A DNA stretch of 33,719 nt from positions 1-33,719 of IMG/VR virus record IMGVR_UViG_3300017687_000010; one strand, given 5' to 3'. The notes below the pieces were generated by a model that had not been told where the DNA came from, searched no databases, and worked only from the letters and a program-made list of their open reading frames with translations. This stretch comes from a virus. Each line of letters begins with the position of its first letter. Within the stretch, counting starts at the first letter, position 1. The translations under genes were made by a program, and so were the position numbers. Positions 1-31,803 of this stretch are shown in pieces.

Positions 1-2427
1 ATGAACTCTGACCTGATCAAGGTACAGCAGGAGATGGAAGCCAAGCAGGCTGGCCTGGGTTTTGACCGCTACTACAAGGAGGTGGATGACAAGAAGGCAA
101 GCAGGGAGGAAAGCGCAACCGAGTATGGCCGCCGGATGATGGGCGTGGGTATCCCGCCCCTGGCCAAACGCATCTCTGAGTTCGTTACCAAGGCGAACAC
201 CGGGCGGGCCGGTCGCAAGCACCTGGCCGCCACGCTGATCTCCCAGGTGGACCCCCAGGTTGTCGCCTACTTGACTCTCAAGTCCATGCTGGATTGCGTC
301 TCCACCACCCCCAAGATACGTCAGATCGTGTCCAGGGTGGGCCGCCTGGTTGAGTTGGAGGTTCGCTTCGGCCGATTCAAGGAGAAGGCCAAGCCCCTTT
401 TCAACAAGGTGGTGGACCAGGTGAAGAAGCAGCCCCATGCCCGCGCCAACACCGTCCTGGTACACGTCGCCAACAAGTTCGACGTTGACCCTGAGTGGGA
501 GCCGTGGACTGCCTCGCAGAAGGCGTCGGTCGGCCTGGCCCTGGTCACCCTGACCCTGGAGACCTTGCCCTGGTTCACCAGCCACACCCTGAGGACCGGC
601 AAGAACAAGTCCACCCGTGTCATCCAGGCCACCCGCGAGTGCCTGGACCTGATTCAGGAGGTTAACGCTCAGAGTGACCTGCTGACCCCGTTCTACCTGC
701 CCATGGTGGTCCCGCCTCGTCGCTGGGAGGGGCCGGTGGGCGGTGGCTACCTGACCGGCATCATCCCCGAGCGCACCCTGGTCAAGACCCACAACAAGGA
801 GTACCTGGAGGAGTTGGCCAACCGGGTGGAGGACATGCCCGAGGTCTACCGTGCGGTGAACGCGATGCAGGAGACTCCCTGGCGCATCAACCAGAACGTG
901 CTGGAGACCCTCAAAGGGCTGTGGGAGACGGGCGGCAAGATTGCCGGTCTGCCCCCGACGGACGACAAGCCCCTGCCGGAGAAGCCGGAGGACATCGAGA
1001 CCAACAAGGATTCCCTGCGCGACTGGAAACGCGAGGCCTCCCTGATCCACGCCGAGAATGCCAAGCTGGTGTCGAAGCGCCTGCAGATCGCCAAGATCAT
1101 ATGGATCGGTGAGATGTTCCGCGACTTCGAGGCCATCTACTTCCCTCACCAGCTAGACTTTCGTGGCCGGGCCTATCCCATGCCCATGTTCCTCAACCCT
1201 CAGGGCATGGACGTGTCCAAGGGATGCCTGGAGTTCGCCGAGGGCAAGGCCATCGAGACCCCCGAGCAGTCCCGCTGGCTGGCCATCCACGGTGCCAACT
1301 GCTGGGGCGAGGACAAGGTGTCGTTCGACGACCGCGTGAAGTGGGTGGTCGAGAACCTGCAGATGATCCATGAGATCGCCGACGATCCCCTGACCCACCT
1401 GGCCTGGACCGAGGCGGACAAGCCGTTTCAGTTCCTGGCCTTCTGCTTCGAGTGGTCCGAGTTCGTGGCCCACGGATACGGTTACAAGAGCCGCATCCCG
1501 GTGGCCATGGACGGCAGCAACAACGGGCTGCAGAACTTCGCCGCCTTGTTGAGGGACGAGATCAGCGGTAAGGCAGTAAACCTGATCCCGGCCGAGACCC
1601 CGCAGGACATCTACCAGGTGGTGGCTGACAAGACCATCGAGAAGCTCAAGGGTAAGGCGACCAAGGGAGATCAACTGGCGGCCAACTGGCTGGCCTTCGG
1701 GATCGACAGGAAATGCACCAAGCGCCCGGTGATGGTGCTGCCCTACGGTGCCAAGCCCTACTCCTGCCGCCGGTACATCCTGGACTACATGAGGGACAAG
1801 ATCGAGGCCAAAGGGTTCAACCCGTTCGGCGATGATCTGTTCCCGGCCGCCGCCTACCTAGCGGACATCGTGTGGGATGCCATCGGCGCGACCGTGGTGG
1901 CCGCCCGCGAGGCCATGGACTGGCTGGTGGAGGCGTCCCGCGTGGCCTCCAAGGAAGGCCTGCCCCTGACCTGGACCACCCCTACCGGGTTCCCGGTACT
2001 CCAGGCGTACAAGGCCTTCGACCTCCGCCTGGTGAAGACCGTGGTGGGTGACCCGGTGTACATCAAGATTCCCGTCGCCCGAGACGAGATCAACAAGCGC
2101 AAGCAGGCCTCCGGCGTCAGTCCCAACTACGTCCACAGCTTGGATGCCAGCCACCTGATGAAGACCATCTGCCTGTCCCTGGACCGGGGAGTGTCGTGCT
2201 TCGGCATGGTCCATGACAGCTACGCCACCCATGCGGCGGACGCCCCGGTGCTGGCCGACTGCCTGCGCCAGGCCTTCATTGATATGTACGGCAGCAGTGA
2301 TGTGCTGGCCGACTTCGCCAGGGAAATCTCCGCCGTCCTTCCAGACGGTGTTGAACTTCCGCCCCTGCCTCCCAAGGGAAACCTCTGTCTCGATAGCGTG
2401 GCAGAGGCAGGCTATTTTTTTGCGTAA
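1..2427 (+). CDS. Single-subunit DNA-directed RNA polymerase, T7 gp1 type
   Basis: This 808-residue protein is a T7-type phage RNA polymerase that transcribes the phage middle and late genes from its own promoters. Catalytic motifs are visible: the palm motif DGSNNGLQNF with metal-binding D504, the fingers motif with K574 and Y582 in the T7 K631/Y639 spacing, and the second palm aspartate D739 in VHDSY. The promoter specificity loop should lie near residues 670-692 and differs from T7, which fits the non-T7 promoter found at 2465 and 10916. The C-terminus ends FFA, like the FAFA foot of T7 polymerase. It is about 75 residues shorter than the 883-residue T7 enzyme. The gene starts at the first base of the window, so the RBS cannot be seen and a start further upstream is possible. 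Confidence 0.98.
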   Translation: MNSDLIKVQQEMEAKQAGLGFDRYYKEVDDKKASREESATEYGRRMMGVGIPPLAKRISEFVTKANTGRAGRKHLAATLISQVDPQVVAYLTLKSMLDCVSTTPKIRQIVSRVGRLVELEVRFGRFKEKAKPLFNKVVDQVKKQPHARANTVLVHVANKFDVDPEWEPWTASQKASVGLALVTLTLETLPWFTSHTLRTGKNKSTRVIQATRECLDLIQEVNAQSDLLTPFYLPMVVPPRRWEGPVGGGYLTGIIPERTLVKTHNKEYLEELANRVEDMPEVYRAVNAMQETPWRINQNVLETLKGLWETGGKIAGLPPTDDKPLPEKPEDIETNKDSLRDWKREASLIHAENAKLVSKRLQIAKIIWIGEMFRDFEAIYFPHQLDFRGRAYPMPMFLNPQGMDVSKGCLEFAEGKAIETPEQSRWLAIHGANCWGEDKVSFDDRVKWVVENLQMIHEIADDPLTHLAWTEADKPFQFLAFCFEWSEFVAHGYGYKSRIPVAMDGSNNGLQNFAALLRDEISGKAVNLIPAETPQDIYQVVADKTIEKLKGKATKGDQLAANWLAFGIDRKCTKRPVMVLPYGAKPYSCRRYILDYMRDKIEAKGFNPFGDDLFPAAAYLADIVWDAIGATVVAAREAMDWLVEASRVASKEGLPLTWTTPTGFPVLQAYKAFDLRLVKTVVGDPVYIKIPVARDEINKRKQASGVSPNYVHSLDASHLMKTICLSLDRGVSCFGMVHDSYATHAADAPVLADCLRQAFIDMYGSSDVLADFAREISAVLPDGVELPPLPPKGNLCLDSVAEAGYFFA
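2393..2421 (+). terminator. Possible weak intrinsic terminator at the 3' end of the RNA polymerase gene
   Basis: A 5-bp stem (ATAGC at 2393-2397 with GCTAT at 2411-2415) has a 13-base loop and leads directly into a run of seven T (2415-2421). The T run is made by two TTT phenylalanine codons, in a genome that mostly uses TTC. A terminator after the polymerase gene would separate host-transcribed early genes from phage-transcribed genes, as TE does in T7. The stem is short and lies inside coding sequence, so this is tentative. Confidence 0.3.
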
Positions 2428-3171: not shown

Positions 3172-3823
3172 AGCGTGGTTCCGTAGCGTGACCCCCAAGG
3201 GAGTCGCATTCTTCCCCAAGCTGGATGAGCCGGACACCCGGTTCGACACCGACGGCGTGTACAAGATCGGCCTGCTGCTGGACGAGCAGGAGGGCGAGAA
3301 GTTCCTGGCCTTCCTGAACGAGAAACGCGACGAGGCGGTGGAGTTCATCAAGGACACCCGCGAGGACATCAAGCCCGCCAAGCTCAAGAAGATGGGCGCG
3401 GCCGACGTTTCCTGCAAGATGGAGGAAGACGACGAGGGCGAGGAGACCGGCAACTACATCTTCAACTTCAAGATGAAGGCCAAGGTCACCTCCAAGAAGA
3501 CCGGCAAGACCTACGAGTTCCGCCCCGGCGTGTTCGACGCCAAGGGCAACGCCATCGACCCCACCGAGACCCCCATTTGGGGTGGCTCCGTGGTCAAGAT
3601 CGCATACGAGCTGTCCCCCTACTACACCCCCAAGGACAACGAGGCCGGTGTGAGCCTGCGCCTGGAAGCGGTGCAGGTCATCGAGCGCCAGGGTCCGGGT
3701 GAGCGTAGCGCCAGCAGCTACGGCTTCGGCGAGGAGGATGGCTTCGACGCTTCCAAGGAGGCCGGTGCTTTCGACGAGGCTCCCGCAGACGGCGACGACG
3801 ACGATGGCGCGGGGGACTTTTAG
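3161..3823 (+). CDS. Single-stranded DNA-binding protein, T7 gp2.5 type
   Basis: This 220-residue protein has the size and layout of T7 gp2.5 (232 aa): an N-terminal OB-fold region, with the early motif VTPKGVAFFPKL, and a long acidic tail ending DDDDGAGDF with a terminal phenylalanine. In T7 this acidic tail with its last Phe contacts the DNA polymerase and the primase-helicase. The protein would coat single-stranded DNA during replication and recombination. ATG 3161 has GGAGGA at 3150-3155. An upstream ATG at 3137 in the same frame adds only MSRPWRIS and has no good RBS. The 3' end overlaps the endonuclease gene by 20 bases. Confidence 0.92.
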   Translation: MARKAWFRSVTPKGVAFFPKLDEPDTRFDTDGVYKIGLLLDEQEGEKFLAFLNEKRDEAVEFIKDTREDIKPAKLKKMGAADVSCKMEEDDEGEETGNYIFNFKMKAKVTSKKTGKTYEFRPGVFDAKGNAIDPTETPIWGGSVVKIAYELSPYYTPKDNEAGVSLRLEAVQVIERQGPGERSASSYGFGEEDGFDASKEAGAFDEAPADGDDDDGAGDF

Positions 3824-4292
3824 AGGGCGAAGCCGGTGGGCAGCGTACCACGAACAGCGGAAAAAGACAGGCTATCGTAGCGGGCTTGAGGTGAATTTGG
3901 CCCAGAACCTGGAGCGTGAGGGACTGATCTTTCTCTACGAGCCAGGCCGGGTCGAGTACACCGTGCCCGCAAGAACGGCGCGGTACACCCCCGACTTCAT
4001 CCTCCCCAACGCAATCATCATCGAGGCCAAGGGCCGGTTCGAGACGAGCGACAGGCACAAGCACCTGCTGATCAAGGAGCAGCTGCCCGACCTGGACATC
4101 CGCTTCGTCTTCTCCAACCCCAACGCCAAGATCAGCAAGCGGTCCACAACCACCTACGCCCTGTGGTGCAAGCATCACGGGTTCAAGTATGCCGCCCGCC
4201 GGGTTCCCACCAAATGGTTGGAGGAACCTCTGAACAGGAGAAGCGCCGATGCCCTCGCTCAATGGGGTATCTCGCTGCCTCAGGACGGTTAG
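3804..4292 (+). CDS. Endonuclease I, Holliday-junction resolvase, T7 gp3 type
   Basis: This 162-residue protein matches T7 endonuclease I (149 aa). It carries SGLE with E29, TPDF with D64, and IEAKG with E74 and K76, the PD-(D/E)xK active site of this family. By comparison with T7, the position of the second glutamate (T7 E35) appears to be L44, with E46 close by. The enzyme resolves branched DNA and helps degrade the host chromosome. ATG 3804 lies inside the SSB 3' end with no strong RBS, so translation is probably coupled to SSB. The next downstream in-frame start would remove the catalytic E29, which supports ATG 3804. Its 3' end overlaps the amidase by 44 bases. Confidence 0.9.
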   Translation: MARGTFRGRSRWAAYHEQRKKTGYRSGLEVNLAQNLEREGLIFLYEPGRVEYTVPARTARYTPDFILPNAIIIEAKGRFETSDRHKHLLIKEQLPDLDIRFVFSNPNAKISKRSTTTYALWCKHHGFKYAARRVPTKWLEEPLNRRSADALAQWGISLPQDG

Positions 4293-4776
4293 TCTGCTGA
4301 TCCTGGTGATCAGCCTTTTCATCGCCAACCCTCACACAACCGGAGCAGCCAAGATGGCCAACCTGCCAGAGATGGTGGTGGTCCACTGCTCTGCCACGCC
4401 CGCGAAGATGGACGTAGGGGCGAAGGAGATTGATCGCTGGCACCGCCAACGCGGATGGCTAGGGATCGGCTACCACTACGTCATTCGGCGCGACGGCACG
4501 GTCGAAGAAGGCAGGCCGGAGGATCGCCCCGGCGCTCACGCCTACGGCTACAACAAGGTATCCATCGGCATCTGCCTGGTGGGCGGCCTGAGTACCCGCA
4601 AGCGACCGTACAACAACTTCACCAAGGAACAATTCGCCGCCCTGCGGAAGCTGATCGATAGTATCTTCCTCCGCTATCGCATCCGGCGGGTTGTCGGACA
4701 CCGAGACCTGGACCCTCACAAGGACTGTCCGAGCTTCGATGTGAAGTCGTGGGCAGAGCATGTGGGTCTCCTTTAA
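4249..4776 (+). CDS. N-acetylmuramoyl-L-alanine amidase (endolysin), T7 gp3.5 type with N-terminal hydrophobic segment
   Basis: This zinc amidase cuts the bond between muramic acid and the peptide stem of peptidoglycan. Counted from ATG 4249, zinc ligands H46, H151 and C160 and catalytic Y75 and K158 correspond to T7 H17, H122, C130, Y46 and K128. T7 lysozyme also binds and inhibits the phage RNA polymerase; whether this one does is unknown. Unlike T7 lysozyme it has a 35-residue N-terminal extension with R9, R12, a hydrophobic run at 13-26, and a possible signal-peptidase site near GAA 32-34. ATG 4249 has AGGAG at 4236-4240. A second start, ATG 4354 with GGAG at 4342-4345, would give a soluble 140-residue T7-like form. 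The gene may therefore make two products. Confidence 0.93.
   Translation: MPSLNGVSRCLRTVSLLILVISLFIANPHTTGAAKMANLPEMVVVHCSATPAKMDVGAKEIDRWHRQRGWLGIGYHYVIRRDGTVEEGRPEDRPGAHAYGYNKVSIGICLVGGLSTRKRPYNNFTKEQFAALRKLIDSIFLRYRIRRVVGHRDLDPHKDCPSFDVKSWAEHVGLL
4342..4356 (+). promoter_or_regulatory. Candidate internal ribosome-binding site and start codon of the amidase gene
   Basis: GGAG at 4342-4345 precedes ATG 4354 by 8 bases, in frame with the amidase. Translation from here gives MANLPEM and then the VHCSAT core, very like the N-terminus of T7 lysozyme, and removes the hydrophobic leader. Use of both starts is inference. Confidence 0.45.
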
Positions 4777-7788: not shown

Positions 7789-8070
7789 ATGCTGTGGATT
7801 GAGTACCTCCACACCTTGGCCGAGCAGGTCAGGCTTCGCGGAGATACCCCGAAACACGCGGTGTGCGGCAGCCACGCCTATCGCTGCCTGCTGCGTGAAG
7901 CTGCTGAGGCGTCGCTTCCTGGGGCGCTGCCGGTCCTGGCTCCGCCTCCCGACTCCGACCTACACATCTTCGGCATCAAGGTGATCAAGGACACCTCCCT
8001 CAACCCCACCTACATGGCAATCAAGTACCGACCTGGGCAAGGCCTCAAGACCTGGCCGCCCAGCGGTTAG
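7789..8070 (+). CDS. Protein of unknown function (93 aa)
   Basis: No family is recognised. The frame starts at ATG 7789, one base after the previous stop, and is followed by the DNA polymerase gene after a 14-base gap holding the polymerase RBS. The sequence has a helical N-terminal half (LHTLAEQVRL, CLLREAAEA), a proline-rich middle and a basic C-terminal part (IKYRPGQGLKTW). There is no membrane segment. Codon use matches its neighbours, supporting a real gene. Confidence 0.65.
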   Translation: MLWIEYLHTLAEQVRLRGDTPKHAVCGSHAYRCLLREAAEASLPGALPVLAPPPDSDLHIFGIKVIKDTSLNPTYMAIKYRPGQGLKTWPPSG

Positions 8071-8084
8071 GACAAGGAGGCCCG

Positions 8085-9938
8085 ATGGCCCTTCTCTTTG
8101 ACATAGAAACCAACGGACTGCTGGACGAGCTGACCACGATCCACTCCATCGTGATCAAGGACACAGAGTCGGGCGAGACGGCAAGCTGCGCTGATCAACC
8201 GGGATGGCTTCCCATAGCTGTGGGGCTGGACATGCTGGAACGGGCTGACATGATCGTCGGCCACAACATTATCACCTTCGACATCCCGGCCATCCAAAAA
8301 CTGTACCCAGGCTGGCAGCCCAAGGGAGTCGTCCGCGACACCTTGGTGCTGTCGCGCCTGATCTGGTCCGACATCTTTCCGCTGGACATGAAGCTGCGCC
8401 GGAAGAACCCGAGCTTCCCCGGCAACCTTATGGGCAGCCACTCTCTCAAGGCCTGGGGATATCGCCTGGGCGTTCTCAAAGGCAACTTCGGCGAGACCAC
8501 CGACTGGTCCGAGTGGACCCCCGAGATGCAGTCCTACTGCGAACAGGACGTGGAGGTCACCGACGCCCTCTGGAAGCTGGTCCTCAGCAAGGACTACTCC
8601 GAGGAGGCCATCGAGCTGGAGCATCGAGTCCGTGAGATCATCTGGAAGCAAGAACAGAACGGCGTCTTCTTCGACGAGAAGGCAGCCGAGGCACTGTATG
8701 CCGAGCTGGCCCCCAAGCGGGCGGCCCTGGAGCGCCAACTGCGGACCATCTTCGAGCCGTGGTGGGTGCCCGCCTCCAAGCACCAGTCCACCGGAAAGCC
8801 AAAGCTGTTCATCCCGAAACGCGACAACCGCAAGATGGGCTACGTCCAGGGCGCGGCGATGTGCAAGATAAAGCTGGTCGAGTTCAACCCCGGCTCGAAT
8901 GAGCATATCGCCGACCGGCTGATCAAGCTGCGCGGCTGGAACCCCATCGAGTTCACCAAGACCGGGCTGCCGAAGATCGACGAGGACATCCTCAAGAGCC
9001 TTCCGTACCCCGAAGCTGAACCCATCGCCGAGTACCTGATGCTCACCAAGCGCATCAGCCAGATCGCCGAGGGCAACCAGGCCTGGCTCCGGTGCGTGAA
9101 GAACGGAAAAATCCACGGCGGTGTGGTGACCAACGGGGCCGCCACCGGCCGCATGACCCACCGCTACCCCAACCTGGCCCAGGTGCCGAGTCTCTACAAC
9201 AAGAAGGGGCCGGTGCCCTACGGCAAGGAATGCCGGGAGATGTTCTACGCTCCCAAGGGCTACGTCATGTTGGGGTGCGACGCCTCCGGCCTGGAGCTGC
9301 GAATGCTGGCTCACTACATGGGCCGGTGGGACGGCGGTGCCTACGCTCAGGAAGTCCTGGGCGGCGACATCCACACCGTGAACCAGAAGGCCGCCGGGCT
9401 GCCCGCCCGAGACCCGGCCAAGACCTTCATCTACGCCTTCCTCTACGGGGCAGGCAACCCGCTCCTGGGCGGCATCCTGCGACCTGACGCATCCAAGGAG
9501 ATTCGCGGCAAGATCGGAGCGCGGCTCCGCGCCAAGTTCCTCAGGGGGCTGCCCGCCCTCAAGATGCTCCAGGACGGTGTGAAGCTGGCCGCTAAGAAGC
9601 GCGGCTGGCTGCGCGGCCTGGACGGCAGGCAGCTGCCGGTGCGCTCCCAGCACTCCGCCTTGAACACCCTGCTTCAGGGGGCCGGGGCCATCGTGATGAA
9701 GAAGGCCACCGTCCTGCAGTGGGACATGCTGCATGAGGCTGGCTACATCGAGGGCAAGGACTGGTTCCAGGTTCTCAACGTACACGACGAGAACCAGCTC
9801 TACGTCAAGGAGGGACTTGAGGACAAGATCGGCCCCATCTGCGTCGAGGCCATTCGCAAGGCCGGTGAACACTTCAACCTGAGAATCCCCTTGGACGGGG
9901 AGTACAAGTCCGGCCGGAACTGGGCCGAGACCCACTAG
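8085..9938 (+). CDS. DNA polymerase, family A, T7 gp5 type
   Basis: This 617-residue polymerase replicates the phage genome. The N-terminal 3'-5' exonuclease has FDIET (D6, E8), a GHNIITFDIP motif and a YCEQDVEVTD motif. The polymerase has motif A CDASGLELRM (D399), motif B with K446, F448 and Y450 (Y450 matches T7 Y526, so dideoxynucleotide acceptance is expected) and motif C VHDEN (D568). It is about 87 residues shorter than T7 gp5 (704 aa). The thumb loop that forms the thioredoxin-binding domain in T7 is reduced to roughly 45 residues between WWVPASK and EFNPGS. Processivity may therefore depend differently on thioredoxin. ATG 8085 follows AAGGAGG closely. Confidence 0.97.
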   Translation: MALLFDIETNGLLDELTTIHSIVIKDTESGETASCADQPGWLPIAVGLDMLERADMIVGHNIITFDIPAIQKLYPGWQPKGVVRDTLVLSRLIWSDIFPLDMKLRRKNPSFPGNLMGSHSLKAWGYRLGVLKGNFGETTDWSEWTPEMQSYCEQDVEVTDALWKLVLSKDYSEEAIELEHRVREIIWKQEQNGVFFDEKAAEALYAELAPKRAALERQLRTIFEPWWVPASKHQSTGKPKLFIPKRDNRKMGYVQGAAMCKIKLVEFNPGSNEHIADRLIKLRGWNPIEFTKTGLPKIDEDILKSLPYPEAEPIAEYLMLTKRISQIAEGNQAWLRCVKNGKIHGGVVTNGAATGRMTHRYPNLAQVPSLYNKKGPVPYGKECREMFYAPKGYVMLGCDASGLELRMLAHYMGRWDGGAYAQEVLGGDIHTVNQKAAGLPARDPAKTFIYAFLYGAGNPLLGGILRPDASKEIRGKIGARLRAKFLRGLPALKMLQDGVKLAAKKRGWLRGLDGRQLPVRSQHSALNTLLQGAGAIVMKKATVLQWDMLHEAGYIEGKDWFQVLNVHDENQLYVKEGLEDKIGPICVEAIRKAGEHFNLRIPLDGEYKSGRNWAETH

Positions 9939-10157: not shown

Positions 10158-10921
10158 ACGCCGACATCCTGATCTACCAGGTGAGCGCCGTCCATGAGAC
10201 CGCCATCGAGTGGCACAAGGACTTCTGGACGCTGCACGGGGACGCCAGGCTGGCCAAGATTTCCCTGGACGACACCGTGGATCAGATCATGGACGAGCTG
10301 AACGCGGACAACGTGGTGATGGCCCTGTCCGCCACCGACCGCTCCAGCAACTGGCGTCTCGAAATCCTCCCCACCTACAAGTACAACCGCGACGGGCGCA
10401 AGCCGCTCGTCTACAAGGCCCTGGTCCAGCACGTCCTGGACAACTACGTCACCTTGGAGCGCCCCACGCTCGAAGGCGACGACGTGCTGGGCATCCTGTC
10501 CACCATGGGAGCCAAGCCTTTCGAGATGGTCACCGGCATCAAGCCAGGTGAGCGTGTCCTGGTCTCCCTGGACAAAGACCTCAAGACCATCCCAGGCCTG
10601 TACCAACGACGGCGCGGCGAGGACATCCGCGAGATCAGCGAAGACGAGGCCAACTGGCATCACCTGTTCCAGGCGCTGACCGGCGACACCACCGACGGCT
10701 ACAAGGGGTGCCCCGGCATCGGCCCCAAGACCGCCAAGAGGATTCTCCCTCCAATAGGCGCTTCGGTCCCTGAGCTGTGGGAGGCGGTGGTCGCCGCCTA
10801 CAGGAAGAAGAACCTGGGAGAGGAGGCCGCCCTGGTGCAGGCGCAGGTGGCCAGGATATGTCGCGTAAGTGACTACAACTTCAAGCAAAAGCGGGTGATC
10901 CCCTGGACGCCTGACAATTAA
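10139..10921 (+). CDS. 5'-3' exonuclease, FEN-like, T7 gp6 type
   Basis: This 260-residue nuclease (T7 gp6 is 300 aa) belongs to the FEN/5'-exonuclease fold. Acidic metal ligands are seen in LLLDADILIY at the N-terminus, LEGDDVLG near residue 115 and SLDKDL near 145, followed by TGDTTDGYKG. Next comes the helix-hairpin-helix CPGIGPKTAKRIL near 200-212. It removes RNA primers and degrades host DNA to nucleotides for reuse. ATG 10139 has GGAGGGAG upstream inside the previous gene. The stop codon TAA at 10919-10921 lies within promoter copy 2. Confidence 0.95.
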   Translation: MRTLLLDADILIYQVSAVHETAIEWHKDFWTLHGDARLAKISLDDTVDQIMDELNADNVVMALSATDRSSNWRLEILPTYKYNRDGRKPLVYKALVQHVLDNYVTLERPTLEGDDVLGILSTMGAKPFEMVTGIKPGERVLVSLDKDLKTIPGLYQRRRGEDIREISEDEANWHHLFQALTGDTTDGYKGCPGIGPKTAKRILPPIGASVPELWEAVVAAYRKKNLGEEAALVQAQVARICRVSDYNFKQKRVIPWTPDN

Positions 10922-10936
10922 GTTGCCCTTATAGTC
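10916..10936 (+). promoter_or_regulatory. Phage RNA polymerase promoter, copy 2
   Basis: AATTAAGTTGCCCTTAT at 10916-10932 is identical to the copy at 2465-2481 over 17 bases, then ATAGTC-like sequence with G10934 as the expected +1. It overlaps the exonuclease stop codon. It should drive the nucleotide-metabolism cassette and, by read-through, the virion genes, since no other good copy was found by eye downstream. Confidence 0.82.
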
Positions 10937-14122: not shown

Positions 14123-14196
14123 TGAGGCGTAGTTCAACGGCAGAACACGCGGCTGTTAACCGCGAGATGCTGGTTCGAGTCCAGCCGCCCCAGCCA
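14123..14196 (+). tRNA. tRNA-Asn (anticodon GUU)
   Basis: A full 74-base cloverleaf with encoded CCA is visible. The 7-bp acceptor TGAGGCG pairs with CGCCCCA with one A-C mismatch. The D arm is GTTC/GAAC, the anticodon stem CGCGG/CCGCG has loop CTGTTAA (anticodon 14155-14157), the variable loop is 4 bases, and the T arm GCTGG/CCAGC has loop TTCGAGT. U1 and G73 match Asn tRNAs of Gram-negative bacteria. It serves AAC and AAU codons; AAC is very common in this phage. Confidence 0.92.
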
Positions 14197-17604: not shown

Positions 17605-17760
17605 ATGGACTGGATTGTGGAGAACTGGGCCGCCATCGGCACCGCCTCCCTCGCTGTGGCCGGTGCTGTGGTGGCCATCACCAAGATCACCAAGAACACC
17701 ACCGACGACGATTGGGCCGCCAAGCTCACGGCTGCCGTCAAGAAGGTGTTCGGCCGTTAA
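17605..17760 (+). CDS. Small single-span membrane protein, holin candidate (51 aa)
   Basis: The 51 residues begin MDWIVENWAAIG, continue with a hydrophobic run at about 9-26 rich in Ala, Val and Ile, then charged TKITKNTTDDDWAAKL and a basic end VKKVFGR. This is the pattern of short phage membrane proteins often annotated as holins (W near the start, one membrane span, then a KxT..DD linker and a basic helix). ATG 17605 has CGGAGAACC 5-10 bases upstream. If it is a holin it would work with the amidase at 4249. The family link is by pattern only. Confidence 0.68.
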   Translation: MDWIVENWAAIGTASLAVAGAVVAITKITKNTTDDDWAAKLTAAVKKVFGR

Positions 17761-17895: not shown

Positions 17896-17969
17896 GCTGG
17901 TGTAGTTCAACGGCAGAACTGCGGTTTAGTAATCCGCCAATGTGGGTTCGATTCCTACCTCCAGCTCCA
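17896..17969 (+). tRNA. tRNA-Thr (anticodon AGU)
   Basis: A 74-base cloverleaf with encoded CCA has the same arm lengths as the tRNA-Asn at 14123. Acceptor GCTGGTG pairs with CTCCAGC with one T-T mismatch; D arm GTTC/GAAC; anticodon stem GCGGT/TCCGC with a T-T mismatch at the loop end; loop TTAGTAA; 4-base variable loop; T arm GTGGG/CCTAC with loop TTCGATT. G1-C72, C2-G71, G35 and U36 are ThrRS identity elements in E. coli. A34 is unusual for a bacterial tRNA-Thr, and base 73 is U. The D-arm block of 18 bases is identical to that of the tRNA-Asn. The two mismatches leave some doubt about function. Confidence 0.78.
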
Positions 17970-31485: not shown

Positions 31486-31803
31486 ATGGAACCAACCATC
31501 GTCAAACTCGTATTCGTGATGCTGGGGCTGATCCTCTCCATCCTCAGTTCGATCACCCTCTACCTGGTACGCAAGACCGCAACCAACACCGACCGACGCC
31601 TGAGCGCCATCGAGAAGACCCAAGGAGAACACATCAGGACGCTGCAGGCTCTCACCGAGCGCCTTCTCAAGGACTATCCCGACAAGGAAGACTGCGACAA
31701 GCGGCACTTCGGGTGCGACCGTCTCCTGGGAGACCATGAAACCCGCATCCGTGTCCTGGAGCATCAGGCGCACGTTCACGGCGAAGCACAACCCGCCACC
31801 TAA
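31486..31803 (+). CDS. Membrane protein with N-terminal span and coiled coil; holin or inner-spanin candidate (105 aa)
   Basis: Residues about 5-26 (IVKLVFVMLGLILSILSSIT) form one membrane span, followed by RK and a charged coiled-coil region to the end, with C65 and C73. T7 has its holin gp17.5 at this place, between fibre and small terminase. One N-terminal span followed by a coiled coil is also the shape of inner-membrane spanins. The topology cannot be decided from the sequence. ATG 31486 has GAGGAAG upstream. Confidence 0.68.
   Translation: MEPTIVKLVFVMLGLILSILSSITLYLVRKTATNTDRRLSAIEKTQGEHIRTLQALTERLLKDYPDKEDCDKRHFGCDRLLGDHETRIRVLEHQAHVHGEAQPAT

Follow-up and report, generated by a model that had tools for sequence, protein, structure and literature searches.

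The window analyzed here is the complete IMG/VR virus record IMGVR_UViG_3300017687_000010 (positions 1 to 33,719; 33,719 bases). Its genes follow a T7-like order, with RNA polymerase (1–2427), SSB, endonuclease I, amidase, an endonuclease VII-like HNH gene, primase/helicase, DNA polymerase, and, further on, the large terminase; several of these names were assigned from position and from reading of the translations. The order 2.5-3-3.5-3.8-4 is common to T7 and the window phage. The record opens exactly on the start codon of the RNA polymerase gene (1–2427, plus strand), as though it had been cut at the edge of a gene, and is without the early region.

The endonuclease I gene (T7 gene 3) occupies 3804–4292 on the plus strand (phrog_945, 5e-49), with the start at 3804 assigned by eye. 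An open frame at 4249–4776 (plus strand) encodes a 175-aa protein composed of an N-terminal leader and an Amidase_2 domain (Pfam Amidase_2, 8e-23; phrog_822 amidase, 9e-66), and its first 44 nt overlap the endonuclease I gene, whereas gene 3.5 of T7 overlaps gene 3 by 1 nt. A second ATG in the same frame, at 4354, lies 10 residues before the zinc-binding His, the family's ordinary start position, and begins a 140-aa form (4354–4776, plus strand) that ends at the same stop, 4776.

The nearest solved structures to the amidase, by sequence as well as by predicted fold, are those of T7 lysozyme (1lba and 1aro), with 1lba as the best match of the predicted fold in the PDB (E 4e-14, rmsd 1.2). The AF2 model is confident from about residue 41, with a core pLDDT above 90, and renders the leader as a detached, low-confidence helix (residues 12–25) followed by a disordered linker. 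The zinc and catalytic residues H46, Y75, H151, K158, and C160 align with those of T7; in A4, K158 is nearly invariant and the other four are fully so. Judged by its sequence, the amidase is this phage's T7 gene 3.5 product, a zinc amidase of the T7 lysozyme family.

Several other features of the record were observed. A 21-mer (AATTAAGTTGCCCTTATRGTC) occurs on the plus strand at 2465–2485 and 10916–10936, two copies at or just past gene ends where none would be expected by chance, and is a candidate promoter for the phage RNA polymerase; it was not found in the relative L214. In L214, a small membrane protein (phrog_1374, function not assigned) is encoded at 7903–8118 (plus strand) between the DNA polymerase and exonuclease genes, a place held in the window by an unrelated 69-aa ORF. 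The record also contains a tRNA-Asn (14123–14196) and a tRNA called as Thr with the anticodon AGT (17896–17969, plus strand), in which, by our own reading, a U·U mismatch adjoins the anticodon loop. An anticodon with A at the wobble position, as in this tRNA-Thr, is unusual in bacteria.

The N-terminal leader and its conservation

The leader comprises 35 codons (4249–4353, plus strand; MPSLNGVSRCLRTVSLLILVISLFIANPHTTGAAK). Two basic residues, R9 and R12, precede a 14-residue hydrophobic run (TVSLLILVISLFIA, residues 13–26, 4285–4326, plus strand), giving the basic N-region and the H-region of 7–15 residues that characterize Sec signals. The next eight residues, NPHTTGAA (residues 27–34, 4327–4350, plus strand), form a possible signal-peptide C-region that obeys the −3/−1 rule at GAA|K. 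A preliminary description of this DNA had proposed that the amidase carries a hydrophobic leader absent from T7 lysozyme, and this holds: residues 13–26 are hydrophobic, and T7 lysozyme is without such a leader. Where it overlaps the end of the endonuclease I gene, in its first 44 nt, the leader evolves under the constraint of that gene; the hydrophobic run lies almost wholly past the endonuclease stop at 4292.

Insertion scores were computed with a hydrophobicity scale and a set of E. coli signal peptides (n = 13) that were both written from general knowledge. On this scale, the best 14-residue segment of the leader scored −2.63, more favorable than the 13 E. coli signal peptides and phiKMV gp45. 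Its 19-residue score of +2.27 (+3.32 in the close relative described below) lies at the bottom of the range spanned by signal peptides (+2.4 to +8.1) or slightly under it, and does not reach that of a stable anchor; by contrast, an ORF at 31486 in the same record reached −1.68, like a true membrane helix. The window has 942 open starts in other frames, of which only two, overlapping at one site, led into a stretch as hydrophobic. As such stretches follow only about 0.2% of these starts, the leader is not a frame accident.

Relatives were sought among viral contigs with endonuclease, RNA polymerase, DNA polymerase, and amidase alignments and with a DNA pattern, and among genome contigs by alignment. 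The sole close relative found, contig IMGVR_UViG_3300014656_000595 (L001), has an amidase core 81% identical to that of the window and retains the leader (VPCPIGGSSFRRAASLLTLIILLIAHPTTGAAK), with GTG at the site of the window's ATG and an AAGGAG displaced by a few bases (duplex energy −8.2). The preliminary description would have counted a leader that is absent or non-hydrophobic in close relatives against its proposal; the one close relative keeps it. Over codons 15–35, dS is 0.33, dN is 0.11, and 79% of residues are identical (80% in the core); the two gaps between the leaders are each 3 nt and in frame (−3, −3). Within the 44-nt overlap, changes at the three codon positions number 3/7/4, mainly at the amidase second position, which is the endonuclease third; past the endonuclease stop they number 3/1/6, mainly at the amidase third position, like the core (22/14/51).

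The nonoverlapping part of the leader is 0.84 identical in the two phages, against 0.63–0.77 for their spacers; spacers of more than 13 nt reach 0.63–0.73. Most of the spacers carry indels that would disrupt a frame. In neutral simulations with ten substitutions, so few replacements arose with p of about 0.10, or about 0.045 when an open, equally hydrophobic frame was added, the in-frame gaps not being counted. Because it rests on one pair, this is good, though not overwhelming, evidence that one close relative conserves the leader as coding sequence. The same comparison bears on the reading in which, as in T7, the short form is the sole product and the upstream open frame is untranslated or incidental. 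That reading accords with the short form being the family norm, but it must accommodate a leader conserved in frame, a ribosome site for the long start that was kept though moved, spacers that are more diverged and carry frame-breaking indels, and the rarity of such a leader by chance; we regard it as improbable.

Beyond these two phages, none of the 154 distinct amidase loci displayed a convincing hydrophobic leader. Two candidates were rejected: that of locus L281 proved to be the endonuclease read in another frame, and that of L300 had only a GTG upstream, with an ATG start behind it. Among cultured phages, the closest endonuclease relative comes from Limnohabitans, and the amidase of that phage is leaderless.

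Two start codons and the RNA polymerase question

Both starts bear the ribosome sites that the preliminary description had assigned to them, at different strengths. An AGGAG (4236–4240, plus strand) lies 8 nt before ATG 4249 and pairs with the anti-Shine–Dalgarno sequence at −7.4, while a possible site, GGAG (4342–4345, plus strand), lies at the same distance before ATG 4354 and reaches −5.8. Energies for most genes of the phage range from about −5 to −12. Because an energy of −7 is attained at 12% of all the window's ATGs and one of −6 at 24%, the first site can be called good and the second ordinary. The region around the long-form start is fairly structured (opening energy 13.2, high among the values for other genes), and mRNA accessibility of the two starts revealed no consistent difference across the window phage and L001.

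The position of the second start fits the T7-like form expected of it. In 87 of the 139 relatives whose upstream gene could be identified, the nearest ATG lies 10–12 residues before the zinc His, the modal range; with 10 residues, ATG 4354 falls within it and therefore stands where the family usually starts. In the window, 91 nt separate the upstream stop from the zinc His, against a median of 29 in the relatives. A phage promoter between the two starts was considered and rejected, as the only repeated promoter-like 21-mer sits elsewhere.

Sequence features speak both for and against two products of the gene, which had also been proposed. The GGAG and ATG of the second start are both kept in L001 (duplex energy −6.2), and the position is that of the family; the ribosome site is weak, and a synonymous-constraint test between the window and L001 detected no excess conservation at the second start (2/8 vs 37/105, Fisher p 0.71). 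The identity of TTGAAKMA in L001 does not decide the matter, since a cleavage site could also explain it. From these sequence features, real use of both starts is plausible, at odds a little short of even. A serious competitor is that only the long form is made, every molecule being exported, and that ATG 4354 is left over from the ancestral start. Its ribosome site, no better than those of about a quarter of random ATGs, and the missing synonymous signal would suit a relic; retention of both ATG and GGAG in L001, exactly at the start position of the relatives, would not, and we put this reading at rather less than an even chance.

The preliminary description further envisaged that two products might divide the two jobs of T7 lysozyme, so that the short form, in the cytoplasm, would inhibit the phage RNA polymerase and the long form would cut the wall. 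Lysozymes of several T7-like Pseudomonas phages do inhibit their own RNA polymerases, and T7-type lysozymes need the N-terminal tail to inhibit (PMC10138996); the retained downstream start would also suit such a role. However, of the 17 residues of T7 RNA polymerase listed as contacting lysozyme (PMC5445346), two are identical in the window polymerase (36% identity overall), and two others lie in a deletion that removes the stretch with 720–721. The tail of the short form, MANLPE, is about 7 residues shorter than that of T7 (MARVQFKQREST). A T7-type role of this kind is not supported and the division of labor very doubtful; the short form and the polymerase might still have a co-evolved contact, though nothing speaks for it.

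Proposed export route and lysis setting

Our best reading is that the amidase is a Sec-exported variant of T7 lysozyme, with a leader whose properties fall in the range of signal peptides or signal-arrest-release (SAR) segments. A Tat signal was rejected by eye, the twin-arginine consensus being absent. Between the two remaining types, the short run rich in Leu, Ile, and Val, followed by Pro, Thr, Gly, and Ala-Ala, leans toward a cleavable signal. A small signal-peptidase PSSM lent this no support: built from 13 signal peptides, of which 8 were placed correctly in leave-one-out trials, and thus on too few to settle the question, it gave the window leader no higher score than shuffled versions.

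In the alternative, the leader would be an uncleaved SAR segment that tethers the amidase in an inactive state until the membrane potential is lost, as in phiKMV and P1. Such endolysins are known in the Autographiviridae, from phiKMV and JG068 (PMC3765740), and the lack of a strong site in the cleavage matrix is in keeping with one here. SAR segments are weakly hydrophobic, rich in Gly and Ala, and without a C-region; the segment of phiKMV gp45 is Gly/Ala-rich. The window run, however, is only 14 residues long and strongly hydrophobic, contains one Ala and no Gly, and is followed by a C-region-like stretch with Pro and Gly that places Ala at −1 and Gly at −3. We consider a SAR segment the less likely of the two types.

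Secreted endolysins with Sec signals are established for the phages fOg44 (PMC6116005) and TP712 (PMC6832245), and in both the enzyme waits until a holin or another agent collapses the membrane potential (PMC6116005, PMC6832245). This would be the default model of lysis for the window phage. Two ORFs may encode its holin. One, of 51 aa with a single predicted helix (17605–17760, plus strand), lies between the scaffold and capsid genes and has a weak match to phrog_9685 (function not assigned). The other, of 105 aa (31486–31803, plus strand), is the one with the membrane-like insertion score; it has one helix and a coiled-coil-like character, lies before TerS at the position of T7 gene 17.5, weakly matches a holin family (phrog_1296, E 0.0055), and lacks relatives in the phage collection. 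Between TerS and TerL, no spanin pair could be seen. Holin-independent export, as the preliminary description suggested, would be consistent with the leader, but claiming it is not warranted, because the record may be incomplete.

Taken together, the two starts, the leader with its coding conservation in one relative, and the T7 lysozyme fold with its catalytic residues lead us to propose, with a probability of about two in three for the explanation as a whole, that the T7 gene 3.5 amidase of a small lineage gained an N-terminal export leader. Ribosomes would begin at ATG 4249, within the end of the endonuclease gene, and the leader would direct the amidase through the host Sec machinery, to be cut off afterward or to hold the enzyme at the inner membrane until release. 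The amidase would thus be in the periplasm ahead of lysis, and the holin would time lysis through collapse of the membrane potential instead of through release of the enzyme. The ancestral start, ATG 4354, was kept and may, at about even odds, still give some leaderless cytoplasmic amidase; in this explanation a dual product is secondary. A more tentative extension, to which we give clearly less than even odds, is that one gene yields two enzymes of nearly the same mature sequence by choice of start codon, one exported by Sec from birth and one cytoplasmic until the holin acts. Were both starts used, an enzyme cleaved at A34|K35 and one begun at M36 would have nearly the same N-terminus.

Comparison with known endolysins

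The window amidase shares with T7 lysozyme (the gene 3.5 amidase, 1lba/1aro) its fold and its zinc and catalytic residues. The T7 enzyme is without a leader and uses a longer N-terminal tail to bind RNA polymerase, whereas the window amidase has a leader and, in its short form, a shorter tail. T7-type amidases are otherwise leaderless among the relatives examined and are taken to await the holin in the cytoplasm. Gain of the leader would show how phage lysis can switch from a holin-released to a host-exported enzyme when some 60 nt change between two genes while the old start stays where it was. In the openly licensed papers searched, we found no description of a T7-type amidase with an export leader, nor of an endolysin gene with two starts of which only one adds an export leader.

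Two groups of exported endolysins resemble the window amidase in part. Lys44 of fOg44 and LysTP712 of TP712 likewise possess an N-terminal export leader of the signal-peptide type; they belong to phages of Gram-positive hosts and their cleavage has been shown, whereas the window enzyme is a single-domain T7-type amidase whose leader may be cleaved. The SAR endolysins phiKMV gp45 and JG068 gp47 come from the same virus family and also carry an N-terminal hydrophobic export segment, but they are lysozyme-type enzymes with a Gly/Ala-rich segment, without a C-region, and with the gene in a late lysis block.

Endolysin genes that give two polypeptides are known from Ms6 (LysA), phage 2638A, Lys170, and CTP1L (PMC9430671), and, like the window gene, have a second start inside the frame that is served by a ribosome site of its own. 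Their short product is a C-terminal part without whole domains, whereas the two window forms would differ by the export leader only. Gram-negative phages were set aside in that work as unlikely to have internal endolysin starts (PMC9430671); if both starts are used, the window gene would provide, in such phages, a compact means of placing one enzyme in two compartments. Each part is already known, from T7 lysozyme, from Sec-signal and SAR endolysins, and from endolysin genes with internal starts.
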